Source: Paracoccaceae bacterium
GTDB taxonomy: Bacteria > Pseudomonadota > Alphaproteobacteria > Rhodobacterales > Rhodobacteraceae
Direction of reading: 5' to 3'
DNA length: 53,774 nt
NCBI GenBank assembly: GCA_018607905.1
Contig: JABBAP010000041.1
Coordinates: forward strand, 1 to 53,774
The translations under genes were made by a program, and so were the position numbers. Shown piece after piece: positions 7,457-20,831 of this stretch; within the stretch, counting starts at the first letter, position 1, and each line of letters starts with the position of its first letter. The notes under the pieces are model-generated. The model was not told where the DNA came from, made no database searches, and saw nothing but the letters and a program-made list of their open reading frames with translations.

Positions 7457-8587
7457 TTAACGCGGCTGCGGGTTCAGCGCCTTGTTGTAGGGATGCCAAT
7501 CCTCCACATCCTCGTAATACTTGCGCCGCCAATCGCGCACACGCGGGTTCATGAACCGTTTCCAAACTGGTGGAAACGACGCCATGATCGTCATGATCGG
7601 ATAGCTATAGGGCAGTTGCGGGGCCTCGTCATCGTCGTAAGTTTGCAGTAACGGATACCGCCGATTGGGTTTGTAATGGTGATCCGAATGACGCTGCAAA
7701 TTTATCAATACCAAATTGGAATACCGATGCGCTGCGTTCCAAGAATGGCGCGGCAAAACATGCTCATATTTTCCGCCACCCAAATGACGACGGGTCAGGC
7801 CGTAGTGTTCGATATAATTCACCAATTCCAACTGCCAAATAGCGACGAACGCTTGCAGACAGAACATCCCGACACCCGTCCAGCCGCCGATCAAAAACGC
7901 AAGAATTAGGAACCCAAACTGAAAGGCTGCATACTTCCAGAACGGATTACTGCGGTGGCTTGCTGGCAGTTTTTTGCGTGCCAACATCGCCGCTTCTGCG
8001 CCCAGTGCGGATTTGAAACACGCAACCAGAACACGGGGGAAAAAGCGGTGAAACCCTTCGTTATAACGCGCAGTCACAGGGTCGCGCGGCGTCCCAACAT
8101 ACGAATGATGCACCAGCAAATGTTCGCTGCGAAAATGCCCGTACAGAACCATCGTCATCAAGAAATCACCCAAAAACCGTTCAAAACGGGATTTCTGGTG
8201 CATCAATTCATGGGCGTAATTAATGCCAATCGATCCGCTCGCAATCCCGATGGTCCCCATGAAAATCCACGACTGTGCAGCCGTCAAACGATCTGTTGTG
8301 CAGGCATAATAAAGCCCGCCGAAAACTAGAATAAATTGCACAAAAGGCCAAATCAGCGTGATCGCAGTGTACCATTTCAGATCATCGTCACTAGCATCCA
8401 CATCGGGATTATCCGTGCGCAATCCAGCGACGAAATCGATCAACGACGTGGCCCACCAGCCATAGATCGGCGTCAGCCACAGCCAAGCGCCCCCATACCA
8501 TCCCGCGACAGCCAAGATCGGCACATAGGTCAGGCAAATCCAAAAAGGGAGTGCCGCGACAAGATCGGTTCGAATGGGTTGGGCCAT
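7457..8587 (-). CDS. alkB: Alkane 1-monooxygenase (AlkB type)
   Basis: Integral-membrane non-heme diiron enzyme that hydroxylates the terminal carbon of medium-chain alkanes, using electrons from rubredoxin. The 376 residues show about six hydrophobic spans. All histidine boxes are present: HELMH, HFRSEHLLVHH, the AlkB-specific NYIEHYG, and LQRHSDHH near the C-terminus. No rubredoxin or rubredoxin reductase gene is next to it. It is slightly shorter than well-studied AlkB proteins (about 400). The start ATG lies 7 nt after a long hairpin whose 3' arm contains the likely ribosome site, which suggests control of translation. Confidence 0.92.
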   Translation of the reverse strand: MAQPIRTDLVAALPFWICLTYVPILAVAGWYGGAWLWLTPIYGWWATSLIDFVAGLRTDNPDVDASDDDLKWYTAITLIWPFVQFILVFGGLYYACTTDRLTAAQSWIFMGTIGIASGSIGINYAHELMHQKSRFERFLGDFLMTMVLYGHFRSEHLLVHHSYVGTPRDPVTARYNEGFHRFFPRVLVACFKSALGAEAAMLARKKLPASHRSNPFWKYAAFQFGFLILAFLIGGWTGVGMFCLQAFVAIWQLELVNYIEHYGLTRRHLGGGKYEHVLPRHSWNAAHRYSNLVLINLQRHSDHHYKPNRRYPLLQTYDDDEAPQLPYSYPIMTIMASFPPVWKRFMNPRVRDWRRKYYEDVEDWHPYNKALNPQPR

Positions 8588-8681: not shown

Positions 8682-10034
8682 TCAGCTTACCGCAGTTAGG
8701 CCCGCATCAATTGCGTTCAAGATCACATCCACATCTGCCTCTGAAATCACCAGCGGCGGCGACAACAGAACATTCGGGCCAGAAACCCGCAGCATTGCAC
8801 CTTTCTCATAAGCAACCTTTTGAACGGCCTGACCAAAACTCGGATCCATCGGCTCTTTGGTGTCGCGATCTTTCACAAACTCCAAAGCCGTCATCAAACC
8901 ATGCGCGCCACGCACATCGCCAATCGCGTTGTGTTTTGCCATCAAGCGTTTTGCGCCTTCAAACATCTGCGTTCCGCGCGCAGTTGCATTCGTGCGCACA
9001 TCCAAACGTTCTGTTTCTTTCAAACACGCAATCGCCGCCGCCGCCCCAACGGGGTGCGCGGTATAGGTGTAACCGTGCCCAACAAACCCCTCAGCGCCCG
9101 CTTTTTCAAACGCTTCGGCCACGTGATTTGCAATCATACAGGCCCCAAACGGATAGTACCCGTTTGTAATCGCCTTTGCGGTACACATGAAATCTGGCTG
9201 CACACCCCAATGGCGCGAACCCGACCAATCACCGGTACGGCCAAACCCTGTAATCACCTCATCCGCGATCATTAGAATGCCGTGCTTGGTACACAAATCG
9301 CGCATCCCCGGCATGAAGGTTTCGTGTGGTACCATGATGCCACCCGCACCCAAAATTGGTTCCATGATGAACGCCGCAATGGTGTTCGGGCCTTCAAACA
9401 GGATCTCGTCTTCGGCCGCTTGCAGGATCAACTGCGCCAGCTTTGCAGGATCGGCTTCATTGAATGGATTGCGATAGGTGTAGGGCGCTGGCAAATGGCG
9501 ACATCCTGGCAACAACGGCTCATACGCTGTGCGGAATTTATTGTTGCCGTTCACCGATGCACCGCCGAAATGCGTGCCGTGATAGCCCTTTTTCAGGCTC
9601 AGGAATTTCGTGCGGGTCTGATCACCGCGAACCTTGTGATACTGACGCGCCAACCGCAACGCCGTTTCCACGGAATCCGATCCACCAGACGTAAAAAACG
9701 CACGGCCCATACCCTCTGGCTCAAAGAACTCGCGCAGCATCCAAGACAGCTCAATCGCGGCGTCATTCGACGTGCCAGAAAACGACGAATAATACGGCAA
9801 CTGGTCCATCTGTTTTGTGATCGCTTCTTTGATCGGATCACAAGAATAGCCAAGGTTCACGTTCCACAAACCGCCAACCGCATCGACCATTTCATGCCCA
9901 TCAATGTCAGTAATCCGCACACCAGACGCGCCCGTGATAATCGCAGGTGGGTTTGCTTGTTGTTGGCCTTGATGGCTCATCGGATGCCACATGTGGCGGG
10001 CGTTATTTTCGCGCAGGAAGTTGTCGTCTTTCAT
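8682..10034 (-). CDS. Class III aminotransferase, possibly taurine--pyruvate type
   Basis: PLP enzyme of 450 residues that moves an omega-amino group to pyruvate or a similar acceptor. Fold type I features include TSGGSDSVETALRLARQYH, GYHGTHFGG, the Asp of IADEVITGFGRTG, and the PLP lysine in CTAKAITNGYYP. The opening WHPMSHQ and overall style fit the omega-amino acid:pyruvate group that includes taurine--pyruvate aminotransferase. The xsc gene 6.5 kb away could use its product, sulfoacetaldehyde. The gene is followed 23 bp upstream by an IclR gene that faces the TTT operon, so its substrate may instead be linked to that operon. Substrate is unresolved. Confidence 0.75.
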   Translation of the reverse strand: MKDDNFLRENNARHMWHPMSHQGQQQANPPAIITGASGVRITDIDGHEMVDAVGGLWNVNLGYSCDPIKEAITKQMDQLPYYSSFSGTSNDAAIELSWMLREFFEPEGMGRAFFTSGGSDSVETALRLARQYHKVRGDQTRTKFLSLKKGYHGTHFGGASVNGNNKFRTAYEPLLPGCRHLPAPYTYRNPFNEADPAKLAQLILQAAEDEILFEGPNTIAAFIMEPILGAGGIMVPHETFMPGMRDLCTKHGILMIADEVITGFGRTGDWSGSRHWGVQPDFMCTAKAITNGYYPFGACMIANHVAEAFEKAGAEGFVGHGYTYTAHPVGAAAAIACLKETERLDVRTNATARGTQMFEGAKRLMAKHNAIGDVRGAHGLMTALEFVKDRDTKEPMDPSFGQAVQKVAYEKGAMLRVSGPNVLLSPPLVISEADVDVILNAIDAGLTAVS

Positions 10035-10056: not shown

Positions 10057-10830
10057 TCATTCCGCCGCGTGCTGAGCCTGCGCATCCTGTGCGCCGTAAA
10101 TTCTGGAAATTGATGCGGCCGCTGCCACCACATGCATGGCGATGTGATCGCCCACCGATACGTTGAAACGCGACGTTGGTGCAGCCACCGCAATCGCGCC
10201 GCAAACAGCGTTGTTCATATTGAAAACCGGTGCAGCCGTGCCGACAACATCTGTTTCAAAGGTACCAAGCGCACGGGCATATCCATTGCGCCGCGCGCAT
10301 GCCACGGCATCCAAAACTGATTCGCGCGTTAATGGCGTTTCATCCGTGAATTGTTCAAACGAACGCCCTAGCATGGCGTTTATCTTTTTTGGCTCAACTT
10401 GGCTCAGCAGGGCGATGCCAGAAGCTGTCGCGTGAAGCGGAAGCAGTGACGCAGGGTCTATATAAACCCGCGTTCCTTTTACTGTGGTCTCTACAATTTG
10501 AACTTCGCTCAACGCGGTGCCTTGAACATGCGTGAGGTGCGCCGTTTCGCCAGTATCTTTAACCAATTGCGTAAGGATGTTTTTTACTGCAGCTTCAACG
10601 GGATACGTCAATTCTCGCACCATGGCTAACCGTGTAACGGCAGGCCCTAAATGATACCCTCGTGTCAATGGATCTTGTTCCAGAAAACCCTGTGATTCCA
10701 ATGCTGCCAAATATCGTTGCACCGTGGCTTTGTCCCGATCCAGCAACCGCGCCGCTTCCGACAGGCCAACGGATGTTCGCGTCTCCGAGAACAACTCCAA
10801 TACCCCCAGTGCCTTGTCGACGGTGCTCAC
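10057..10830 (-). CDS. IclR-family transcription regulator
   Basis: A 257-residue regulator with an N-terminal winged helix-turn-helix (VDKALGVLELFSE ... DKATVQRYLAALESQGFLEQD) and the C-terminal IclR effector domain (about residues 75-245). Residues around HATASGIALLS and the later CGAIAVAAP segment match the family. It is transcribed away from tctC and just before the class III aminotransferase, 22 bp apart. It most likely controls both units through the dyads in the 133-bp gap. The effector should be an intermediate of the neighbouring catabolic operon. Confidence 0.9.
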   Translation of the reverse strand: MSTVDKALGVLELFSETRTSVGLSEAARLLDRDKATVQRYLAALESQGFLEQDPLTRGYHLGPAVTRLAMVRELTYPVEAAVKNILTQLVKDTGETAHLTHVQGTALSEVQIVETTVKGTRVYIDPASLLPLHATASGIALLSQVEPKKINAMLGRSFEQFTDETPLTRESVLDAVACARRNGYARALGTFETDVVGTAAPVFNMNNAVCGAIAVAAPTSRFNVSVGDHIAMHVVAAAASISRIYGAQDAQAQHAAE

Positions 10831-10891: not shown

Positions 10892-10924
10892 ATCATTATT
10901 TCAACCGCTGGATTGAATAATGAT
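10892..10924. promoter_or_regulatory. Inverted repeat, likely IclR operator
   Basis: ATCATTATTTCAA (10892-10904) faces TTGAATAATGAT (10913-10924), a 12-bp dyad with one bulged base, between the IclR gene and tctC. A second imperfect dyad lies nearby: TTGCAAATGATACG (about 10845-10860) against CGATACGTTTGCGCAA (about 10877-10892). Together they fill the divergent promoter region. Assigning them to the adjacent IclR protein is inference. Confidence 0.6.
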
Positions 10925-10963
10925 CCACGGTGCAAAAATCAAAGGACAACTAGGGAGTCCCCA

Positions 10964-11905
10964 ATGAACAAGTTTCTGACCGTAGCAGCCACTGCTGCTT
11001 TGACGGCCGCCAGCTTTGCTGCGCCAGCCGTTGCTGAATACCCCGAAAAACCCGTCAACTTTATCGTGCCTTGGCCTCCGGGTGACCTCGAAGACGTGCT
11101 GACACGCATGATCGCCGAAGACTTCCAAGCAGAGTACGGCGTTGCGGCAGCCGTTGTGAACAAACCGGGCGGCGGTGGCGGCCCATTCCCAGGTGCAATC
11201 GAGGTGGCAACAGCACCATCCGATGGTTACACAATTGGGTCCTTCGTGATGGGCGTGCCTTTGGTCGGCCACCAAATCGGTATCCCAGAACTCAGCCCGG
11301 AAAAATTTGATCCGCTGGGCATTTTTGTAACCTACCCATTTGTTCTGGCAGCCGCAGCTGATGCGCCGTTCAAAACAATCAGCGAAATGGCGGAACATGC
11401 GAAATCCAACGAATTGGCTCTCGGCCATTTTGGTGCGCCACTGATCCCAACCAAAGTTACGCTCGCCTATGCAAAGGCAGCGGGTTTTGAATGGGGTTCA
11501 GAAGCCGCATTTGATGCGCTTGATTGTAACACTTTGGCCTCTGGCGATGCAGACGTGATCAACACCACGCTACAATTGATCTTGCCTTGCTTGGACTCCG
11601 TCACAGTCCTGACCTCGTTCACCTCTGATCGGATTTCACTGACTCCAGACACACCAACAATCACCGAAGTGAACCCCGCTTTGGCGATGACACTGTGGAA
11701 CGGCTTGTTCGTGAACAAAGACACACCACAAGACGTGCGCGAAAAAATCATCGCTGTTGCCAAGAAAACAATGATGTCTGATCGTGCGCAAGAAGTGGCC
11801 AAAACAACTGGCGCACAAGTTTACTGGCAGGATGCAGCGTCATCCGCAGAACAAGTGGCATCAGATATTGCCAAGCTTGCTGAAATCAACGGCATGTTGG
11901 AATAA
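10964..11905 (+). CDS. tctC: TTT-family solute-binding protein (TctC)
   Basis: Periplasmic binding protein of a tripartite tricarboxylate transporter. I choose ATG 10964, preceded by AGGGAG. It gives a classical signal peptide (MNKFLTVAATAALTAASFA, cleavage near AVAEYPEKPV). The mature part has the TctC openings YPEKPVNFIVPWPPG and VVNKPGGGG. It has 313 residues. Two cysteines (DALDCNTL and ILPCLDSV) may form a disulfide. It is the first gene of an eight-gene operon and is followed by a terminator-like hairpin, which would let it be made in excess over the membrane parts. TTT systems usually carry carboxylates; the ligand here is unknown. Confidence 0.92.
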   Translation: MNKFLTVAATAALTAASFAAPAVAEYPEKPVNFIVPWPPGDLEDVLTRMIAEDFQAEYGVAAAVVNKPGGGGGPFPGAIEVATAPSDGYTIGSFVMGVPLVGHQIGIPELSPEKFDPLGIFVTYPFVLAAAADAPFKTISEMAEHAKSNELALGHFGAPLIPTKVTLAYAKAAGFEWGSEAAFDALDCNTLASGDADVINTTLQLILPCLDSVTVLTSFTSDRISLTPDTPTITEVNPALAMTLWNGLFVNKDTPQDVREKIIAVAKKTMMSDRAQEVAKTTGAQVYWQDAASSAEQVASDIAKLAEINGMLE

Positions 11906-11919
11906 ACAAAACAGAGTCA

Positions 11920-11950
11920 AAGCCGGCCCCTTTATACGGGTCGGCTTTTT
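11920..11950 (+). terminator. Partial terminator between tctC and tctB
   Basis: AAGCCGGCCC (about 11920-11929) pairs with GGGTCGGCTT (11938-11947) and is followed by T residues. It lies 14 bp after the tctC stop and 22 bp before tctB, so it probably lowers readthrough into the operon. Confidence 0.82.
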
Positions 11951-11971
11951 CTATTTAGACTCGGGGCAGGC

Positions 11972-12487
11972 ATGAACACGCAAACCATCAAAACCAAACC
12001 GGGCGAAATCCTGTTCATTGCGGCCTTCTTCCTGTTCTCGGCATTTCTGCTCTCCCAACTTGGTGAACAAGCGACGTTCAAACCCAAAGGCAAGTTCTTT
12101 GCCCAGCCCGCAGTTTGGCCCGGCATCAGCGTATTCGGCATGACCCTGTTTGGCGGCCTGCATCTGCTAACCCGTTACAAACACCGCGTCGGCGGCACAG
12201 GCGCAGAATTCACAACGTGGTTGCGCGCCCTCGAATTCGTCGCGTGGTTCATGGTCTATGTCTATGCCGTTCCCAAATTCGGCTACCTTCCCTGCACGCT
12301 CCTCTTTACCACCGCGTTGGGTTTTCGCATGGGGTATCGCAAAACCTCCACGTTGCTTTGGGCCACGTTCGCTGGCCTAATGATCGTCTTCATTTTCAAA
12401 ACACTGCTCGGTGTTAAAATCCCAGGCGGCGCGATTTACGAATATCTGCCCGATGCCCTGCGCAACTTTATGATTGTGAATTTCTGA
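11972..12487 (+). CDS. tctB: TTT-family small membrane subunit (TctB)
   Basis: A 171-residue inner-membrane protein with four predicted helices (about residues 12-32, 45-65, 85-115 and 125-145), the normal size and topology of TctB. It sits between tctC and tctA and ends one base before the tctA start. With TctA it forms the membrane part of the symporter fed by TctC. Sequence conservation in this subunit is low, so the call relies on position, size and hydrophobicity. Confidence 0.88.
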   Translation: MNTQTIKTKPGEILFIAAFFLFSAFLLSQLGEQATFKPKGKFFAQPAVWPGISVFGMTLFGGLHLLTRYKHRVGGTGAEFTTWLRALEFVAWFMVYVYAVPKFGYLPCTLLFTTALGFRMGYRKTSTLLWATFAGLMIVFIFKTLLGVKIPGGAIYEYLPDALRNFMIVNF

Positions 12488-12488
12488 C

Positions 12489-13970
12489 ATGGAAGTCCTC
12501 CTCTCCAGCTTTGGCATCCTCGCACGGTGGGACGTGGTCGCGGCCCTGATCATCGGCTCTGTCGGTGGTGTCATCATCGGCGCAATTCCCGGTGTCGGCG
12601 CAGCAGTTGCCATCGCAATCCTGCTCCCCGCCACCTTCATTTTCGATCCAATCGTCGGGCTCACTGCCCTGCTCGGCATTTACGGATCATCCATGTACGG
12701 CGGCGCAATTCCCGCAATCCTGATCAACACACCGGGCACAGCCGTTAACGCCCTCACCACCTACGACGGCTACCCAATGACACAACGTGGCGAAGGCCGC
12801 CGCGCTCTCGCCCTCGCCTATTCCGCCAGCTTTTTCGGCGGCGTTTTCGCGATCCTTTGTCTAATCCTGCTCTCGCCCCTGCTCGCCAGTTTTGCAAAAA
12901 ACTTCGGCAGTCGTGAAATCTTCCTCGCCGCCCTCCTCGGCATTGTTCTTGTGATCGTGGCACACCGTGGCCAAACCCTCATCGCCGCCGCTTTTGCGTG
13001 TTTCGGTATCTGGCTGCAAACCATCGGCCTCGCGCTTGATTACTCTAAAACCTACACTTTCGGGCAAAGCTGGCTCTCCTCTGGCGTGAACCTTATCGTC
13101 GTGGTCCTCGGCCTGTTCGCCATCTCCCAAGCCTTCGTTTTGTTAATTGACAAAGACAACTCCCCCAAGGCCGAACCGATGTCAGGCAGTATCTTCCAAG
13201 GCTTCAAAGAATTGATGCAGCACAAACGCGTTGTCACCATCAGCTCGTCCTTTGGCGTGGTCATGGGCATGATCCCGGGCGTCGGCGAATTCACTGCGCA
13301 ATTCATGTCCTACACCACGGCACGCCGCCTCTCCAAAACACCCGAACAGTTCGGCAACGGCTCTCCAGAAGGCCTCATCGCATCCGAAGCCGCCAATAAT
13401 GCCGTTCCCCCTGCCGCAATGATCCCACTCCTCGCGCTCGGCATCCCAGGCGAGGCTCTCACTGCCATGATGCTCTCGGTCTTTTACGTCCACAACGTCG
13501 TGCCCGGGCCGCAACTGTTTAGCGGTCAACTGGATTTCGTCGTCGCCCTCTACATCGCGCTTCTCATCCTCAATGTGCTGGTCCTCGTCTTCCTCCTCTT
13601 TTCAACAAACTTGCTGCTAAAAATCATCCAAATCCCAACACGGTTCTTGGGCGTCGTCGTCCTCACCCTGTCCTTCGTCGGCGTTTATTCCCTGCGAAAT
13701 TCAGTCACGGATTGCATCATGGCCGCCTGCATCGGCGTGCTCGGCTTCATCATGAAACGCCTGAATTTGCCCATCGTCCCGATTATCCTTGGCATGGTTC
13801 TGGGCGAGATTATGCAAAACAAATTGCGCACCTCTATGCTGCGCGTGAAAAACCCGTTCGACATGATCGACCGCCCCATCGCGTTCATCCTGTTCTGCCT
13901 TATCCTCATCGTCCTGTTCGGCCACTTTCGCCGTATCTGGATGGAACAAAAAGCTGCGAAATCACAATGA
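12489..13970 (+). CDS. tctA: TTT-family large membrane subunit (TctA)
   Basis: A 493-residue permease with about a dozen hydrophobic segments. It carries the TctA signatures GAIPGVGAAVAIAILLP near the N-terminus and the repeated MGMIPGVGEFTAQFMSY near the middle. Other family runs are GIYGSSMYGGAIPAILINTPG and SEAANNAVPPAAMIPLLALGIPG. It couples uptake to an ion gradient. Its TGA overlaps the ATG of the aldehyde dehydrogenase gene (ATGA, 13967-13970), tying transport to the catabolic enzymes in one transcript. Confidence 0.94.
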   Translation: MEVLLSSFGILARWDVVAALIIGSVGGVIIGAIPGVGAAVAIAILLPATFIFDPIVGLTALLGIYGSSMYGGAIPAILINTPGTAVNALTTYDGYPMTQRGEGRRALALAYSASFFGGVFAILCLILLSPLLASFAKNFGSREIFLAALLGIVLVIVAHRGQTLIAAAFACFGIWLQTIGLALDYSKTYTFGQSWLSSGVNLIVVVLGLFAISQAFVLLIDKDNSPKAEPMSGSIFQGFKELMQHKRVVTISSSFGVVMGMIPGVGEFTAQFMSYTTARRLSKTPEQFGNGSPEGLIASEAANNAVPPAAMIPLLALGIPGEALTAMMLSVFYVHNVVPGPQLFSGQLDFVVALYIALLILNVLVLVFLLFSTNLLLKIIQIPTRFLGVVVLTLSFVGVYSLRNSVTDCIMAACIGVLGFIMKRLNLPIVPIILGMVLGEIMQNKLRTSMLRVKNPFDMIDRPIAFILFCLILIVLFGHFRRIWMEQKAAKSQ

Positions 13971-15451
13971 CCACACAAGCCCAAATTGATACGATCCGTG
14001 CGCAAATAATTGCCCCACAACAGCTGTTCATCGGCGGCAAACACGTTGCAGGAACCGCTGATCCAATGGGCGTCACATCCCCCATCGACGGATCAAACCT
14101 CACCACAATCGCCAACGCAACCGCATCCGAAGTAGACACCGCCGTCGCCTCCGCACGCGCTGCATTCAACGATGGGCGCTGGTCTAATCTGCCCCCTGCT
14201 GCCCGCAAAAAAGTCCTGTTTGCCATCGCCGACGGGATCGAAGCAGATGCACTCGCACTGTCTATCCTCGGCGTGCGCGACAACGGCACAGAATTCAACA
14301 TGGCCTATAAGGCCGAGGCTGGCTCCGCCGCAGGAACCTTCCGCTACTACGCCGAGGCCATCGACAAAGTATCGGGCGAAATCGCCCCAACCGCGCCAAA
14401 TACCCTCGGCCTTGTTCACCACGAACCCGTGGGCGTTGTCGGCGCAATCATCCCGTGGAACTTCCCGCTGATGATCGGCGCATGGAAACTCGCACCCGCC
14501 CTCGCCGCTGGTAACTCGGTTGTGTTAAAACCATCCGAAACCGCCTCGCTCTCCCTGCTCCGCCTCGCCGAAATCGCATCGGCTGCTGGCCTGCCAGACG
14601 GTGTGCTCAACGTCGTCACTGGCGATGGCCGCATCGCAGGCGACGCCCTTGCACGCAGCATGGATGTCGATGTGCTCGCCTTCACAGGTTCAGGCTTCAC
14701 AGGCCGCAAACTGTTAGAGGCCTCCGCCCAATCAAACCTAAAACGTGTCTATTTGGAGCTCGGTGGAAAATCCCCGAACATCGTTTTTGCAGACGCGCCA
14801 GACCTCGACCAAGCCGCCAAAGTCTCTGCCGCTGGCATCTTTCGCAATTCAGGCCAAGTCTGCGTCGCAGGCTCGCGCCTTTTGGTCGAACGCTCCATCC
14901 ACGATGATTTTGTCGCCGCAATGAAAATCCACGCCGAAGCCTTCAAAGTCGGCGATCCGCTCGATCTGCAAACCCAAATCGGCGCAATCAACTCCGAACG
15001 CCAACTCGAAGGCAACCTCTCCCTTACCGCCGCCGCCGTATCCGAAGGTGCAGAATGCATCACCGGGGGCGAACGCATCCTTGGCCAAACAGGCGGCACC
15101 TACATGGCACCAACGATCCTGAAAAACGTCCTGCGCACCAACACCGTTTTCAAAAACGAAGTCTTCGGCCCCGTCCTCGCCGTCACCCCGTTTGATACTG
15201 AAGCAGAGGCAATCGCACTGGCAAACGACAGCGATCTCGGCCTTGCCGCAGGGGTTTGGACAGCCGATTTATCCCGCGCGCACCGCATGATCCGCGCTGT
15301 TCAAGCAGGGGTCGTGCACGTGAACACCTACGGCGGCGCGGACAACACCGTACCGCTTGGCGGACACAAACAATCGGGCAATGGATCAGATAAATCGCTC
15401 CACGCGCTGTCGAAATACACCAACCTTAAAACCGCATGGATTCAGCTGTGA
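13967..15451 (+). CDS. NAD(P)+-dependent aldehyde dehydrogenase
   Basis: A 494-residue ALDH-superfamily enzyme that oxidises an aldehyde to the acid. The catalytic Cys is in GQVCVAGSR and the general-base Glu in LELGGKSPN. The cofactor-binding region has IIPWNFPLMIGAWKLAPALAAGN and FTGSGFTGR. The chosen ATG overlaps the tctA stop. The 3' end overlaps the following phospho-lyase gene by 16 bp. Position next to the phospho-lyase suggests that it takes the aldehyde that enzyme releases. Candidates are succinate semialdehyde, 2-aminoadipate semialdehyde or a short aldehyde. Confidence 0.93.
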   Translation: MTTQAQIDTIRAQIIAPQQLFIGGKHVAGTADPMGVTSPIDGSNLTTIANATASEVDTAVASARAAFNDGRWSNLPPAARKKVLFAIADGIEADALALSILGVRDNGTEFNMAYKAEAGSAAGTFRYYAEAIDKVSGEIAPTAPNTLGLVHHEPVGVVGAIIPWNFPLMIGAWKLAPALAAGNSVVLKPSETASLSLLRLAEIASAAGLPDGVLNVVTGDGRIAGDALARSMDVDVLAFTGSGFTGRKLLEASAQSNLKRVYLELGGKSPNIVFADAPDLDQAAKVSAAGIFRNSGQVCVAGSRLLVERSIHDDFVAAMKIHAEAFKVGDPLDLQTQIGAINSERQLEGNLSLTAAAVSEGAECITGGERILGQTGGTYMAPTILKNVLRTNTVFKNEVFGPVLAVTPFDTEAEAIALANDSDLGLAAGVWTADLSRAHRMIRAVQAGVVHVNTYGGADNTVPLGGHKQSGNGSDKSLHALSKYTNLKTAWIQL

Positions 15452-16728
15452 CCCCAACCACAAAATCCCTTCTTGATCGTCGCGATGCCGTGCTTGGCCC
15501 AAACATGTCCACGTTTTACGAAGACCCTGTTCATCTGGTAAAAGGTGCCGGCGTTTGGCTTTGGGATGCGGACGGCAAAAAATACCTGGATTGCTATAAC
15601 AACGTCCCGCACGTCGGCCACTGCCACCCGCACGTTGTTGACGCAATCGCCAAACAAGCCGCCACATTAAACACCCACACACGCTACCTGCACGAAGGCA
15701 TTCTCGATTACACCGAACGCCTAACCGCCACGTTCGACGACCCGCTAAACACCGCGCTTTTGTGCTGCACAGGATCCGAAGCAAACGACGTTGCCCTGCG
15801 CATGGCCGAGGCCGTGACAGGCAAAACAGGCATCATCGCCACCGATCACACCTACCACGGCAACACCTCCACCGTGTCGCAGCTTTCCACCACCAACACG
15901 CCAAAACTCGGCCAAAGCAACCACATCCGTTTTGTGCCAACCCCCGACAGCTATCGCCCAGCCTCAAACGATCCCGCGCAATTCTTTGCCGATCAAGTCA
16001 GCGCCAAAATCGCTGAATTACAGGCATCTGAGCACGGTTTCGCCGCGCTCATCCTCTGTCCATTTTTCGGCAACGAAGGCTTCCCTGATCTGCCCGCAGG
16101 GTTCCTCGATGCGACACTCAAAGCGGTGCATGCCGCGGGCGGCATCTTGATCGCAGACGAAGTTCAACCCGGTTTTGGCCGCCTCGGCTCCCACTTTTGG
16201 GGCCACCAGTTTCAGGGCATCACACCCGATGTCGTGACCCTCGGCAAACCTATGGGCAACGGCCACCCCGTTGCTGGCGTCGTGACCAGCGCCGACATCA
16301 TGCATGAATTCCGCACCGCATTTCGGTATTTCAATACATTTGGCGGCAATCCAGTGTCTTGCGCCGCCGCAATGGCCGTTATGGATGTGATCGAGTCCGA
16401 GGGTCTGATGACCCGCGCCGCAGATGTCGGAGCCTACGCCAAAGACGCGATGCAATCTCTTGCAAACAAACATGAAATCATCGGCGACGTTCGCGGCAAA
16501 GGCATGTTCTTTGGCGCAGAACTTGTCACCGATCGCGCCACCAAAACCCCCGCCACGGATTACATCTTGCGTGTCATCGAAGAACTGCGAAATCGGGGTA
16601 TTCTGCTGAACAAGATTGGCGTTCATTACAACACACTAAAAATCCGGCCAAATCTGCAATTCAACCGCGAAAACACGGATCAGCTGATTGAAACGCTCGA
16701 TGCGGTCCTGACAGATATTCAACCATGA
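15436..16728 (+). CDS. Class III PLP enzyme of the amino-alcohol-phosphate phospho-lyase type
   Basis: A 430-residue enzyme of the aminotransferase class III fold. It reads closest to human ETNPPL and PHYKPL, which are not transaminases: they eliminate ammonia and phosphate from O-phosphoethanolamine or 5-phosphohydroxylysine to give an aldehyde. Shared stretches (from memory) are GSEANDVALR, DHTYHGNTS, DEVQPGFGRLGSHFWGHQFQG, the PLP lysine run LGKPMGNGHPVAGV, FNTFGGNPVSC and GDVRGKGMFFGAEL. The kinase gene directly after it, overlapping by 4 bp, would make the phosphorylated substrate, and the ALDH before it would oxidise the product. A true aminotransferase is the alternative. The exact substrate is unknown. 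Confidence 0.82.
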   Translation: MDSAVTPTTKSLLDRRDAVLGPNMSTFYEDPVHLVKGAGVWLWDADGKKYLDCYNNVPHVGHCHPHVVDAIAKQAATLNTHTRYLHEGILDYTERLTATFDDPLNTALLCCTGSEANDVALRMAEAVTGKTGIIATDHTYHGNTSTVSQLSTTNTPKLGQSNHIRFVPTPDSYRPASNDPAQFFADQVSAKIAELQASEHGFAALILCPFFGNEGFPDLPAGFLDATLKAVHAAGGILIADEVQPGFGRLGSHFWGHQFQGITPDVVTLGKPMGNGHPVAGVVTSADIMHEFRTAFRYFNTFGGNPVSCAAAMAVMDVIESEGLMTRAADVGAYAKDAMQSLANKHEIIGDVRGKGMFFGAELVTDRATKTPATDYILRVIEELRNRGILLNKIGVHYNTLKIRPNLQFNRENTDQLIETLDAVLTDIQP

Positions 16729-17666
16729 AACGGGCCCATCAAGCGCTGGAAAATTGGGATATTCAGCCCACAGATGTGAACCTTGCGGCAGAGCGTGAAA
16801 ACAAGGTCTACCGTGTCACAACCCCAAACGGCGATTACGCCCTACGCCAACATCGCGCAGGATATCGCACAGACGCAGAGCTGGCGTCTGAACTAATCTG
16901 GATGGCCGCAGTAAAGGCTTCGGGCCTAGATGTTCCACAGCCGATTGCTGCCAAAGACGGCACATTCCTAACGGTCATCGACAGTGTTCAATTCGACATC
17001 CTCACATGGTTGCCAGGTCGCCAGCTTGGCGCACACGGCACGCCTCTCGACCTCGAAAATCCAGAACAAACCTTCCGCACGCTTGGCCAATCCATGGCGA
17101 AATTACACAACGCCTCCGACGCATGGACACCGCCCACAGATTTCACCCGCCCCGCATGGAACGCAGACGGCTTAATTGGTGAAACCCCGCTGTGGGGCAG
17201 ATTTTGGGATAACCCAACGCTCGCACATGGCCAGAGAGAACTGCTCGAATCCTTTCGCGCGAAAGCCTGCGCCGCGTTAAAAGAAGGCGACCATGATTTC
17301 GGCCTTATCCACGCCGATATGTTGCGTGAAAACGTACTTGTCGACGGCGAGATCCTGCGCATTATCGATTTTGACGATGGCGGTCACGGCTTTCGTTTGT
17401 TCGAGCTGGCGACCACATTATTCCGCGTCAAAGACGAACCAAACTCGGTTGAATTAACCACTGCGCTGATCGACGGATACCAATCCATTCGCCCCATCAA
17501 CATCACCCATTTACCACTGTTCATGGCCTTGCGCGCCTGCACCTATGTCGGGTGGATCGTCACGCGCATGGAACTGCCAAATGCCGAAAAACGCAATATC
17601 GAACACATCCAAAACGCCACGCAAGCCGTTGCAAAATGGTTAGAAACGGAGCTTTCACATGTCTGA
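16725..17666 (+). CDS. Phosphotransferase (aminoglycoside/hydroxylysine kinase family)
   Basis: A 313-residue APH-family small-molecule kinase. The N-lobe carries NKVYRV and the Lys/Arg region YALRQHRAG. The C-lobe has the catalytic loop LIHADMLRENVLV and the metal-binding IIDFDDGG. The family includes 5-hydroxylysine kinase, choline kinase and homoserine kinase II. It overlaps the phospho-lyase gene (ATGA) and the next gene by 8 bp. The simplest reading is that it phosphorylates the hydroxyl of an imported amino alcohol for the phospho-lyase. Antibiotic resistance is unlikely in this context. Confidence 0.85.
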   Translation: MKRAHQALENWDIQPTDVNLAAERENKVYRVTTPNGDYALRQHRAGYRTDAELASELIWMAAVKASGLDVPQPIAAKDGTFLTVIDSVQFDILTWLPGRQLGAHGTPLDLENPEQTFRTLGQSMAKLHNASDAWTPPTDFTRPAWNADGLIGETPLWGRFWDNPTLAHGQRELLESFRAKACAALKEGDHDFGLIHADMLRENVLVDGEILRIIDFDDGGHGFRLFELATTLFRVKDEPNSVELTTALIDGYQSIRPINITHLPLFMALRACTYVGWIVTRMELPNAEKRNIEHIQNATQAVAKWLETELSHV

Positions 17667-18891
17667 CAAAACCATCCTCATAATCGGTACATACGACACC
17701 AAAGACGACGAACTGTTGTACATGGCCGAGCGCATCATTACCATGGGCGGTGGCGTGATGACGATGGATATCAGCGTGCTTGGTGATCCAACCCAAGCCT
17801 GTGATATTTCCAAACATGATGTGGCAGCAGCAGCCAACAGCTCCATCCAAGCCGCCATCGATTCAGGCGATGAAAACACAGCGATGCAAATCATGGCACG
17901 CGGCGCATCCACAATCGCCGCGCAACTTCAATCGGGCGGGAAATTTGACGGCGTCGTAATCCTCGGCGGAACGATGGGAACAGACGTGGCGCTTGATGTG
18001 TGCCAAGCCCTCCCGATGGGCGTGCCAAAATACGTCGTATCCACCGTGTCTTTCTCTCCGATCATCCCCGCAGAACGCCTATCTGCGGACATCCAAATGA
18101 TCCTTTGGGCAGGGGGTCTCTACGGCCTTAATTCCATCTGCAAAGCCGCCCTTTCCCAAGCCGCAGGCGCAGTATTAGGGGCGGCACGCGCCGTGGAGCC
18201 TCCTGCAATGGACAAGCCAATTGTCGGGATGACATCGCTAGGATCATCCTGCCTAAGATATATGAAATTTCTAAAACCCGCCCTAGAAGATCGCGGTTTT
18301 GAGGTCGCCATTTTCCACGCCACAGGCATGGGCGGCATGGCATTTGAATCCCTCGCCGCACAAGGCAAATTCTGCTGCGTTATGGATTTCGCTTTACCCG
18401 AACTTGGCAACCTTTTGGCTGGCTCAGTCATCAATGGTGGCACGGATCGTATGCTAAACGCAGGCCGCGCTGGCACGCCGCAAATTGTTGCACCTGGCTG
18501 CCTTGATCTTATTGATTTTGCGGGTTGGCAAGACATTCCCGAACGCTACCAAGATAGACCCTTCCACGAACACAACCGCCTTATTAAGTCTTCCGCGCTC
18601 AACAACGACGAACGTCGCGAAACAGCTCAAGCCGTGGCTGAACGAATGTCTCAATCTTCCGCGCCAAATCACTTTATTATGCCTCTACAAGGTATTGAGG
18701 AATGGGACAAAGAAGGCGATGTGGCTTATGATCCAGAAGGGCTTTCTGCATTCACAGACGAAGTGCGCAAAGTCATGAAAGGGTCAATCGCTTACACAGA
18801 AATCGACGCGCATATCAACGATCAAGCCTTCGCCGATACCGCGCTTGAAATATTCGATGCTTGGTGCGCCGATGGCACCGTAGTAAAGTGA
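17659..18891 (+). CDS. Tm-1-like ATP-binding domain protein (UPF0261)
   Basis: A 410-residue protein of the UPF0261/Tm-1-like family, named after the N-terminal half of the tomato protein that inhibits tobamovirus replication. Visible hallmarks are the start KTILIIGTYDTKDDELLYMAE, the glycine-rich GGTMGTDVALDV, KYVVSTVSFSP, and FHATGMGGMAFE in the second half. The bacterial function is not established. Often its partner is a TIM-barrel protein, here absent; instead it sits between a kinase and a flavoprotein. Overlaps at both ends (8 bp before, GTGA after) show that it belongs to the operon. It may act on a phosphorylated or nucleotide-activated intermediate, which is inference. Confidence 0.88.
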   Translation: MSDKTILIIGTYDTKDDELLYMAERIITMGGGVMTMDISVLGDPTQACDISKHDVAAAANSSIQAAIDSGDENTAMQIMARGASTIAAQLQSGGKFDGVVILGGTMGTDVALDVCQALPMGVPKYVVSTVSFSPIIPAERLSADIQMILWAGGLYGLNSICKAALSQAAGAVLGAARAVEPPAMDKPIVGMTSLGSSCLRYMKFLKPALEDRGFEVAIFHATGMGGMAFESLAAQGKFCCVMDFALPELGNLLAGSVINGGTDRMLNAGRAGTPQIVAPGCLDLIDFAGWQDIPERYQDRPFHEHNRLIKSSALNNDERRETAQAVAERMSQSSAPNHFIMPLQGIEEWDKEGDVAYDPEGLSAFTDEVRKVMKGSIAYTEIDAHINDQAFADTALEIFDAWCADGTVVK

Positions 18892-20831
18892 CGTCTCCCT
18901 ACGATATTCTGTTTGAACCCGTAAAAATTGGGCCTGTCACTGCACCCAATAGGTTTTACGCCGTACCTCATGCGACAGGCCATGGATGGCATGAGCCAAA
19001 CGGTTCAATCGCTTTGCGGGCAACCAAGGCCGAAGGCGGCTGGGGTACAATTATTAACCCAATGACCGAAATATCTGCCGACGCAGACATGGGCAATCAT
19101 CCATTAGATAGACTTTGGGATGATGCAGACATTCCACGCCATGTGGCGAATGTTCAGGCGATCAAATCTCATGGCGCATTGGTCGGGATAGAACTGGCCC
19201 ACGGCGGAATGCGTGCACGGAACTATCATTCTGGCCTCCCTGTCAAAGGCCCGTCCGGTGGGCATATATTACGGCCAGAAATTCCCATGTTCACCCGCAA
19301 GATGGACAAATCGGACATTGCTGAATTTCGTGAGAACCACAAAGCAGCGGCGCGGCGCGCCAAACAGGCCGGATATGATATCCTTTATGTTTACGCTGCA
19401 CATGATCTGTCTTTGCTCAGCCACTTCCTGTCGCCAAACAACAATCATCGCACAGATGAATATGGCGGCAGCTTTGAAAACCGTATTCGTCTGTTGCGCG
19501 AAACCCTTGAAGATACCTTAGAAATTGCCGCAACTGACTGCGCAGTCGCCGTGCGATTTAGTGTCGATGAACCTGACAAAGCCAATGGCATTCGCCACAC
19601 TGGTGAAGGGCGCGATGTCATCGAAGCGCTCGCCGAGTTGCCTGATTTATGGGATATCAACATCGCAGGCTGGCCTTCTGACAGTCAAACCGCACGCTTC
19701 GCAGATGAAGGATATCAACTTCCGTTCATGGACTTCGTCAAATCTGTCACAACCAAACCCGTCGTCGGGGTCGGTCGGTACACATCGCCAGATGCAATGG
19801 TGTCAAACATCCGCAAAGGGCGGCTCGATCTGATTGGCGGTGCGCGCCCTTCAATTGCCGACCCATTTCTGCCAAACAAAATTCGTGACGGCAAAATTGA
19901 GGCAATTCGCGAATGCATCGGTTGTAATGTTTGCGTATCAATGGACGCGTACGGTGTGCCGTTGCGCTGCACCCAAAACCCGACAATCGCAGAAGAATGG
20001 CGCCGCAATTGGCATCCCGAAAATATTCCCACATCAAAAACGCTGAAATCCTATCTTATTGTGGGTGCTGGCCCTGCAGGATTGGAATGCGCATGGACCT
20101 TATTGCGGGCTGGTAACACCGTCACAATCGCTGAAGCACGCGATGTCGCTGGTGGCCGCATCACCCGTGAAAGTGCGTTGCCCGGCCTGTCATCATGGGC
20201 ACGGGTACGTGACTATCGCACCTATCAATTGGGCCAATCAAGCAACGCTACCCTGTATCTATCGAGCGCGCTTTCTGCGTCAGATATCGCCGAGTTTGAT
20301 GCTGATCATGTCATTATTGCCACCGGCTCTTCTTGGGTGGCTGAGACGCCAATGCTGACGCCAGATGACATTATGGATGGCTTACTACCCACTAATTCTG
20401 TTCAAATTTATGACGATGATCATTTTTACATGGCAAGTGTTCTGGCCGAGCATATTGCCCTAGCTGGGTTAGATGTGTCCTACACAACCGCGCAACCTGT
20501 CGTTGCTGGTTGGACTGATTTCACCCTAGAACAAGATCGCATTATTGCTCGGCTCAATGCTCTTAATGTGCCGATGCACGTGAATACACCGTTTTCGACT
20601 CTGCAATCTGGTACCGTTTTACATGTCGGTCATCGCGCCCCGAATGATAGCTTGTTTGGCGAAACCCGTGACCTGCTCGGAGAAGAAAACGTAACGCTGT
20701 GCGGCGATGCGCTGGTCCCCGGGACGATCCAAGCAGCTGTTCATTCCGGGCATCGCATCGCGCGGCAGTTGCTGGGTGATCCATTGGCGGGGAACACGGT
20801 AAATCGCGAAGTTCCACAAATCCTGCTTTAG
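18888..20831 (+). CDS. Trimethylamine-dehydrogenase-like flavoprotein with [4Fe-4S] cluster
   Basis: A 647-residue Old-Yellow-Enzyme-type FMN barrel followed by a [4Fe-4S] site and a C-terminal dinucleotide-binding domain (LIVGAGPAGLECAW). I start at GTG 18888, which overlaps the previous stop (GTGA). The cluster cysteines are C343, C346, C349 and C361. Y169, H172, W262 and D265 align with the TMADH active site (Y169, H172, W264 and D267). The Cys that links FMN in TMADH (C30) is Ala29 here, and two of the three aromatic substrate-cage residues (Y60 and W355) read Met59 and Asp353. So it is probably an amine dehydrogenase or demethylase that donates electrons to ETF, but not for trimethylamine. 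Alternatives are dimethylglycine- or N-methylproline-demethylase-like enzymes. Confidence 0.85.
   Translation: MTSPYDILFEPVKIGPVTAPNRFYAVPHATGHGWHEPNGSIALRATKAEGGWGTIINPMTEISADADMGNHPLDRLWDDADIPRHVANVQAIKSHGALVGIELAHGGMRARNYHSGLPVKGPSGGHILRPEIPMFTRKMDKSDIAEFRENHKAAARRAKQAGYDILYVYAAHDLSLLSHFLSPNNNHRTDEYGGSFENRIRLLRETLEDTLEIAATDCAVAVRFSVDEPDKANGIRHTGEGRDVIEALAELPDLWDINIAGWPSDSQTARFADEGYQLPFMDFVKSVTTKPVVGVGRYTSPDAMVSNIRKGRLDLIGGARPSIADPFLPNKIRDGKIEAIRECIGCNVCVSMDAYGVPLRCTQNPTIAEEWRRNWHPENIPTSKTLKSYLIVGAGPAGLECAWTLLRAGNTVTIAEARDVAGGRITRESALPGLSSWARVRDYRTYQLGQSSNATLYLSSALSASDIAEFDADHVIIATGSSWVAETPMLTPDDIMDGLLPTNSVQIYDDDHFYMASVLAEHIALAGLDVSYTTAQPVVAGWTDFTLEQDRIIARLNALNVPMHVNTPFSTLQSGTVLHVGHRAPNDSLFGETRDLLGEENVTLCGDALVPGTIQAAVHSGHRIARQLLGDPLAGNTVNREVPQILL

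Follow-up and report, generated by a model that had tools for sequence, protein, structure and literature searches.

A conserved kinase and phospho-lyase-like gene unit in Rhodobacteraceae with a proposed role in aromatic ethylamine catabolism

Gene content of the locus

Positions 10964–20831 of the window, i.e., the whole 53,774-nucleotide stretch analyzed here (contig JABBAP010000041.1 of the Paracoccaceae bacterium assembly GCA_018607905.1), hold a cluster of eight genes: tctCBA for a tripartite tricarboxylate-type transporter (TTT), followed by genes for an aldehyde dehydrogenase (ALDH), a phospho-lyase-like pyridoxal phosphate (PLP) enzyme, an APH kinase, a Tm-1-like protein (Tm1), and a flavoprotein resembling trimethylamine dehydrogenase (TMADH). 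An IclR gene faces tctC across 133 bp, and behind it, on the strand shared with IclR, lies a class III aminotransferase gene (AT3; 8682–10034). Most of these genes belong to a conserved unit that is associated with genes for homoprotocatechuate cleavage (hpa), and we propose that the unit acts in the catabolism of aromatic ethylamines. The features are as follows.

8682–10034, minus strand: class III aminotransferase (AT3), member of the conserved unit; Aminotran_3 match, PRK07481 score 703.8 against a cut-off of 575
10057–10830, minus strand: IclR-family regulator, divergent; IclR_C and HTH_IclR domains
10910–10926, plus strand: candidate IclR operator GGATTGAATAATGATCC, pseudo-palindromic; box found in IclR-divergent regions
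10964–11905, plus strand: tctC, periplasmic binding protein of the tripartite tricarboxylate-type transporter; TctC, 69.7 bits
11972–12487, plus strand: tctB, small membrane subunit; TctB, 37.4 bits against a cut-off of 29.1, the weakest match of the cluster
12489–13970, plus strand: tctA, large membrane subunit; TctA, 428.5 bits
13967–15451, plus strand: aldehyde dehydrogenase, proposed arylacetaldehyde dehydrogenase; Aldedh, 535 bits
15436–16728, plus strand: PLP-dependent phospho-lyase-like class III enzyme; nearest solved chains are the phospho-lyases 5g4i and 6tor
16725–17666, plus strand: APH-fold small-molecule kinase; APH, 107.1 bits, with HADMLREN and IDFDD motifs
17659–18891, plus strand: Tm-1-like UPF0261 protein; UPF0261 N and C domains
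18888–20831, plus strand: flavoprotein with flavin mononucleotide (FMN) and 4Fe-4S sites, similar to TMADH and histamine dehydrogenase, accessory; 3k30, 585.5 bits, TMADH, 457.4

All eight genes of the cluster are intact and co-directional, and every product scores above its own Pfam cut-off (TctC, TctB, TctA, Aldedh, Aminotran_3, APH, UPF0261 N and C, and Oxidored_FMN). The tctC–tctB and tctB–tctA gaps are 66 and 1 bp, respectively, and the following genes overlap by 4 bp (tctA–ALDH), 16 bp (ALDH–PLP enzyme), 4 bp (PLP enzyme–kinase), and 8 bp (kinase–Tm1). The Tm1 and flavoprotein genes overlap by 31 bp if the latter begins with the TTG at 18861, and by 4 bp (GTGA) if it begins with the GTG at 18888, which we prefer. 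An earlier, sequence-only reading of this DNA described the eight-gene cluster with its facing regulator, which is confirmed here, and the overlaps of 4–16 bp that it gave from tctA onwards are exact if the flavoprotein starts at 18888. The cluster named in that reading is genuine; AT3 was left out of it, and the flavoprotein that it included is not a core member.

Conservation of the unit

The PLP protein was searched against 295 genomes of the family Rhodobacteraceae and gave matches at E ≤ 1e-60 in 135 of them. PLP matches in 59 genomes, mainly ones high in the match list and with some on short contigs skipped, were collected with their surroundings as 60 stretches (20 kb at most). A second set comes from named GTDB genomes, mostly Rhodobacteraceae and Rhizobiales by title, and consists of 80 loci, the best of 590 (as for all named loci below). 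Some loci belong to both sets, and related genomes do not count as independent samples. A locus was called linked if at least one of Tm1, AT3, tctA, ALDH, or an APC permease was found beside the PLP gene by tblastn, with identity limits that we set ourselves.

By this definition, 28 of the 60 family loci are linked, and these hold the kinase (28), Tm1 (25), AT3 (24), ALDH (24), IclR (24), and tctA (21), with a HAD hydrolase in 6 and the flavoprotein in 1. The corresponding counts for the 80 named loci are 78 for the kinase, 60 for Tm1, 57 for IclR, 56 for AT3, 55 for ALDH, 36 for the HAD hydrolase, 28 for tctA, 22 for the APC permease, and 5 for the flavoprotein. Because all seven markers (AT3, IclR, tctA, ALDH, PLP enzyme, kinase, and Tm1) occur together within about 20 kb in 18 of the 60 family loci and 20 of the 80 named loci, the clustering is beyond chance. 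These seven genes are the conserved unit, and the flavoprotein is an optional add-on. The sequence-only reading had named a lack of joint conservation in related genomes as grounds for its refutation; the genes are conserved together, the flavoprotein not being part of the core.

Individual parts of the unit can be separated. Among 17 Tm1-centered stretches, L099, L111, L114, and L115 have AT3 without the PLP enzyme and kinase, and elsewhere the PLP enzyme and kinase occur with no AT3 in the stretch (e.g., L031, L183, and L199). Such loci fit the idea of two exchangeable entries into one route; in some genomes the missing genes may lie elsewhere.

The closest relatives by PLP protein among the named loci are Amylibacter cionae (82%) and a Rhodobacteraceae metagenome-assembled genome (MAG; 83%). 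Both units lack the flavoprotein, with mutY as the next listed gene after Tm1. In the window, a gene for a fatty-acid-desaturase-family membrane protein (7457–8587) lies directly behind the aminotransferase gene, and of the named loci, just the two Amylibacter-type relatives, L145 and L146, have it next to the unit. The HAD hydrolase that accompanies the unit in 36 of the 80 named loci (e.g., L092, 7955–8605) is absent from the window unit; it might clear stray phospho-amines.

The PLP enzyme, the kinase, and the remaining core proteins

The solved chains that match the PLP enzyme best are 5g4i (phospholyase, 408.8 bits) and 6tor (ethanolamine-phosphate phospho-lyase, 366.6 bits), and the next best is a dialkylglycine decarboxylase at 203.7 bits. 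By sequence, the enzyme is nearer to the phospho-lyases (ETNPPL/A1RDF1 group) than to transaminases. Lys271 and Asp241, which we take to be the PLP-binding catalytic lysine and a PLP-site residue, are invariant across 14 aligned orthologues. In three printed alignments, an Asn-x-x-x-Arg-[Tyr/Phe]-Leu motif containing Arg83 is common to the window enzyme and both phospho-lyases and is missing from dialkylglycine decarboxylase, and we infer that the motif may be functionally relevant. Taken together, the sequence comparisons support assignment of the protein as a probable phospho-lyase. Identity with the ammonia-lyase PbfA was also considered and rejected, as the NCBIfam model NF049939 scores 211.7 against a cut-off of 525.

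The kinase has the APH fold with the HxDxxxxN (HADMLREN) and DFDD (IDFDD) motifs intact as read in the sequence, and its gene lies in the same stretch as the PLP gene in 78 of the 80 named loci. We propose that it is an APH-fold amino alcohol kinase with an aromatic substrate. The chain from kinase through phospho-lyase to ALDH that the sequence-only reading envisaged is supported, at the level of sequence, by the phospho-lyase similarity, the kinase pairing, and the conservation of the genes.

The nearest solved chain to the ALDH is 5iuu, presumably an indole-acetaldehyde dehydrogenase, with KauB also near, and the protein is 68% identical to the ALDH adjoining hpa genes in rhizobia. A succinate-semialdehyde dehydrogenase model scores 345.4 as against about 420 for phenylacetaldehyde models; since none of the named ALDH cut-offs shown is reached, these scores are weak evidence. 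AT3 has as its nearest solved chains 6s54, named an aspartate aminotransferase family protein, and 5lh9, an omega transaminase. Solved chains that match the Tm-1-like protein are Tm-1 itself and a further member of UPF0261. The UPF0261 family is related to the tomato virus-resistance protein Tm-1, and we know of no reaction for its Tm-1-like members.

Association with homoprotocatechuate cleavage

On four Rhizobiaceae plasmids, the gene series Tm1–HAD–AT3–PLP–APH adjoins hpa ring-cleavage genes, with IclR and an APC permease present in three, and one of the four stretches also holds a gene for an HpaB-type 4-hydroxyphenylacetate (4-HPA) hydroxylase. No gene annotated as hpa was seen in the plasmid stretches of Ruegeria pomeroyi and Gemmobacter, for which the gene table is incomplete. 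With loci called linked by unit genes alone, hpa genes occur in 8 of the 28 linked stretches of the family set and in 2 of the 32 unlinked ones (p 0.035); in the named set, the figures are 29 of 65 and 2 of 15, respectively (p 0.038). Complete six-gene units of the APC type have hpa genes nearby in 20 of 22 cases.

The association extends to whole genomes. Of the 27 genomes from which a linked locus was fetched, 25 have the hpaF gene (CHMI); the corresponding figures are 14 of 32 for genomes whose fetched loci are all unlinked and 77 of 268 for all genomes outside the 27, most of which were not examined for the unit. Over the 295 genomes, 88 have both Tm1 and hpaF, 13 Tm1 only, 14 hpaF only, and 180 neither (odds ratio 87). 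Here, hpaF was counted as present if its best E was below 1e-20, a cut-off of our own that drops 14 of 116 genomes; with all 116 counted, the numbers are 90, 11, 26, and 168 (odds ratio 53).

A tree built from 87 PLP proteins places the window enzyme in a supported clade of 42 (support 99/90) that comprises 37 of the 47 unit-linked rows, the window included, and five others. A neighboring clade of 28 has 27 unlinked members, which by eye are often near pncB/pncA-like genes. Rhizobial members, mostly hpa-linked, branch outside both clades, so the link to aromatic degradation may be ancient, and the function of unlinked copies may be retained or altered.

Two observations on more remote pairs stand apart. 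PLP/kinase pairs of the neighboring clade near pncB/pncA-like genes (L053, L055, L059, L066, L069, L073, L075, L076, L078, L083, and L086) have no transporter or ALDH gene that we found beside them, and their neighbors read like nicotinate salvage. On the Escherichia coli plasmid NZ_CP107722.1 (L116), a distant kinase/PLP pair is accompanied by genes for an SDR oxidoreductase, an ABC transporter, a gamma-aminobutyrate (GABA) transaminase, and a succinate-semialdehyde dehydrogenase, which makes it a candidate for the aliphatic route that the sequence-only reading had proposed.

The window's own genome, a draft of 95.88% completeness, encodes HpaD, E, and F with an HpaR-like protein on one contig and HpaG, H, and I on another (L237, contig C40). 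These homologues are 52–77% identical to the rhizobial proteins, with CHMI, FAA_hydrolase, and HpcH_HpaI domains confirmed. The genome also has a PLP decarboxylase that is 54–62% identical to those among hpa genes in five loci; its nearest solved chain is 3,4-dihydroxyphenylalanine (DOPA) decarboxylase at 358.4 bits, with tyrosine decarboxylase at 310.7. A search of this genome for a second type of 4-HPA hydroxylase gave 11 PF08028 matches, the best of which resembles an ordinary acyl-CoA dehydrogenase.

Other genes near hpa were noted as well. In L237, HpaG, H, and I have a luciferase-like monooxygenase and a flavin reductase as neighbors, together with, by eye, a thiamine diphosphate enzyme, a hydrolase, and an ALDH, so that this neighborhood looks like a separate degradation cluster. 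Among 31 hpa stretches, an aromatic-amino-acid-decarboxylase-like gene is present in five (L050, L124, L128, L133, and L136), and a second, LigB-like dioxygenase, named by eye, in seven (e.g., L039 and L125).

Transporter, flavoprotein, and regulator

The TTT set of the window is complete with TctA, TctB, and TctC. In other versions of the unit an APC-type amino acid permease takes its place: tctA is found in 28 and the APC permease in 22 of the 80 named loci, and both together in none. Because of this replacement, a role of the TTT as carboxylate importer is unproven.

The flavoprotein is closest to histamine dehydrogenase (3k30, 585.5 bits), ahead of TMADH (457.4). In TMADH numbering, it keeps Tyr169, His172, Asp267, and the 4Fe-4S cysteines (CIGCNVC...C). 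Cys30, presumably the 6-S-cysteinyl FMN attachment site, is replaced by Ala, and in what we take to be the aromatic cage (Tyr60, Trp264, and Trp355) only Trp264 is kept: Met stands in place of Tyr60, and Trp355 is opposite a gap of one residue, next to which an Asp aligns with the Asp of histamine dehydrogenase. With the FMN-binding cysteine and two of three cage residues lost, identity as trimethylamine dehydrogenase was rejected.

Among 157 other loci the flavoprotein occurs in seven, near Tm1 in each. The 157 include some duplicates; in addition, L150 and L154 come from sister MAGs and are nearly copies of each other, and the tree places L031 close to L183. A DAO-GcvT protein of about 820 residues, nearest to dimethylglycine dehydrogenase (424.3 bits), is encoded in six of the seven as against three of the 150 loci without flavoprotein (p 3e-8, with loci not independent). 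Full-length partners in eight other loci are 67–72% identical to the L148 query, and a partial one in L107, excluded by the length limit applied, is 64% identical over 376 residues. Since this gene accompanies the flavoprotein, it supports N-methyl chemistry. The window has no such partner, and the best match in its genome, at 44%, is not a close orthologue. As a separate observation, the L148 flavoprotein unit has a cytochrome P450 gene inside the operon and an adjoining 2Fe-2S protein gene, with a DmmA-like domain at 32.8 against a cut-off of 33.

The N-demethylation that the sequence-only reading ascribed to the flavoprotein has therefore gained indirect support, with a second possibility standing beside it. 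The protein may instead be an amine dehydrogenase that offers a third way of deamination, an alternative that is compatible with aromatic amine catabolism and to which we give a little less than an even chance. Histamine dehydrogenase, which deaminates a primary amine, is its closest relative, the Asp beside the lost Trp355 is shared with that enzyme, and in L106 the flavoprotein is paired with tctCBA and Tm1, with no AT3, PLP enzyme, or kinase match in the stretch, where identification covered some of the open reading frames. Against it stands the demethylase-like DAO-GcvT gene in six of the seven loci.

A 17-bp box resembling GGTTYRAATAATGAACC lies between IclR and the divergent gene, and at least 13 of its 17 positions agree in 42 of 51 regions, as compared with maxima of 11–14 over 50 shuffles per region. 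The count of 42 is descriptive, because part of these regions also served to derive the consensus and the sets have regions in common. In the search for a wider IclR regulon, eight sites with two mismatches were found, none of them on the hpa contigs, and the reversed control gave 5 matches as against 9 in all, so that a wider regulon is unsupported.

Proposed function and alternative explanations

Based on the phospho-lyase relatedness and the hpa association, we judge it somewhat better than an even bet that the unit serves the catabolism of aromatic ethylamines via homoprotocatechuate cleavage, a role for which we infer the substrates and all reactions. An importer, TTT in the window and an APC permease in most rhizobial versions, would bring in a phenol- or catechol-type amine. 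The kinase would phosphorylate the β-hydroxyl group of octopamine, noradrenaline, or N-demethylated synephrine or adrenaline, and the phospho-lyase would eliminate the phosphate to give an enamine that hydrolyses to ammonia and an arylacetaldehyde. Amines without the β-hydroxyl group, i.e., tyramine and dopamine, would be converted directly to the aldehyde by the aminotransferase at 8682–10034. The ALDH could then form (di)hydroxyphenylacetate, to be cleaved and degraded by HpaD–I, encoded elsewhere in the genome. The flavoprotein would be an optional module for N-demethylation or amine oxidation, and IclR would control the unit through the conserved box.

In an extended version of this scheme, the window locus would be a complete route for N-methylated catecholamines and phenolamines such as adrenaline and synephrine, where the TTT carries the amine, the flavoprotein demethylates it, the kinase activates the benzylic hydroxyl group, and the PLP enzyme frees the arylacetaldehyde. 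We consider this extension doubtful. Should it apply, the locus would supply genes for the bacterial octopamine- and synephrine-cleaving activities (EC 4.2.1.87 and 4.2.1.88), for which no sequence is known to us.

Several observations weigh against a role in aromatic ethylamine catabolism. TTT systems are usually credited with carboxylates, and of the complete six-gene TTT-type units like that of the window only 4 of 20 have hpa genes nearby. The local linkage tests (p about 0.035 and 0.038) are modest, and they draw on overlapping sets and on related, non-independent genomes. In a control over the 295 genomes, Tm1 is also associated with homogentisate dioxygenase (HmgA; odds ratio 10.9), and part of the Tm1–hpaF signal is thus a matter of aromatic degraders in general; within HmgA-positive genomes, the counts for Tm1 and hpaF are 85 with both, 9 and 11 with one, and 96 with neither (odds ratio 82). 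HpaB is rare (29 of 295 genomes) and unrelated to Tm1 (10 of 101 genomes with it and 19 of 194 without, odds ratio 1.0), and no HpaB match was found in the window's own draft genome. A phenolic amine would consequently lack its ring hydroxylase; a catecholic amine would not need one. The rarity of HpaB suggests that in this family the substrates are already catechols (dopamine, noradrenaline, and adrenaline) or that another hydroxylase acts. The window box at 10910–10926 is the only exact copy in its genome, and the hpa genes appear not to share it. Finally, co-occurrence does not name a substrate.

The sequence-only reading had the TTT import an N-methylated hydroxy-amino acid, e.g., one giving 4-amino-3-hydroxybutyrate (a demethylated carnitine), which would be converted via succinate semialdehyde to succinate. 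A TTT suits a carboxylate, the flavoprotein loci hold a dimethylglycine-dehydrogenase-like gene, and the L116 pair lies near GABA transaminase and succinate-semialdehyde dehydrogenase genes. The L116 relative, however, is placed outside the clade that holds the window enzyme, the unit goes with hpa genes, and the ALDH model scores, weak as they are, favor phenylacetaldehyde (about 420) over succinate semialdehyde (345.4). The route to succinate is unsupported, as neighborhoods and genome-wide partners point to aromatic amines and homoprotocatechuate cleavage, and we regard a carnitine-type substrate as quite improbable. A broader aliphatic alternative, in which the kinase and phospho-lyase take ethanolamine, 5-hydroxylysine, or a different aliphatic amino alcohol as substrate and the hpa link is a by-product of catabolic islands, is unlikely rather than far-fetched: among solved enzymes, a phospholyase and an ethanolamine-phosphate phospho-lyase are the closest, and many PLP loci of the family (32 of 60) have no unit genes, with hpa genes also missing in 30 of the 32. 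Against this alternative stand the persistence of the Tm1–hpaF co-occurrence within homogentisate-pathway genomes and the mostly hpa-linked rhizobial outgroup.

Most characterized class III enzymes are transaminases (PMC8154272), and the PLP enzyme could be an ordinary transaminase with an unrelated kinase next to it. This is very unlikely in view of phospho-lyase scores about twice those of any other listed class III enzyme, the kinase gene beside the PLP gene in 78 of the 80 named loci, and the separate transaminase-type gene, AT3, that the unit already holds.

If aromatic ethylamine catabolism is correct, the unit provides candidates for the genes with which bacteria degrade octopamine, noradrenaline, and the N-methyl forms of both, extends kinase/phospho-lyase chemistry from aliphatic to aromatic amino alcohols, and places the uncharacterized Tm-1-like UPF0261 family in a defined catabolic context. 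It would also suggest that a TTT system can import amines. Cultured species carry the unit, and the predictions are directly testable there.

Comparison with known systems

Animals are said to couple hydroxylysine kinase with PHYKPL and ETNPPL (reportedly Veiga-da-Cunha 2012), and an Erwinia amino-alcohol kinase and phospho-lyase were reportedly described by Jones et al. in 1973. As in those routes, an APH-type kinase and a class III PLP phospho-lyase would be coupled to aldehyde formation by the window unit. The unit differs in that the genes share one operon with a transporter, ALDH, and Tm1, beside an aminotransferase and a regulator, and in being tied to aromatic ring cleavage, whereas the animal and Erwinia routes have aliphatic substrates.

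Catabolism of aromatic biogenic amines via homoprotocatechuate is reportedly known from Pseudomonas (Cuskey and Olsen 1988; Arcos et al. 2010). Such catabolism generally runs from amine to arylacetaldehyde, arylacetate, and homoprotocatechuate meta-cleavage, as proposed for the unit, with a different transporter and different deaminating enzymes, and we know of no kinase/phospho-lyase genes assigned to that route. In the open-licence literature, none of the matches listed dealt with octopamine, synephrine, or noradrenaline as substrates of a kinase/phospho-lyase route, and as far as we know, genes for this kind of breakdown of adrenaline- or octopamine-like amines have not been pinned down.

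With the TMADH/histamine dehydrogenase family, the window flavoprotein shares the FMN domain, the four 4Fe-4S cysteines, and the Tyr169-His172-Asp267 set (TMADH numbers); it departs from it at Cys30 (Ala), Tyr60 (Met), and the lost Trp355 with its neighboring Asp. PbfA, an (R)-1-hydroxy-2-aminoethylphosphonate ammonia-lyase (PMC8154272), resembles the window PLP enzyme in its class III PLP fold, in acting as a lyase on a β-hydroxy amine, and in its aldehyde product. PbfA differs in needing no kinase, and the window enzyme remains far below the PbfA cut-off (211.7 against 525). Kinase/phospho-lyase routes and homoprotocatechuate amine catabolism are each known, and their combination in one conserved unit looks new.

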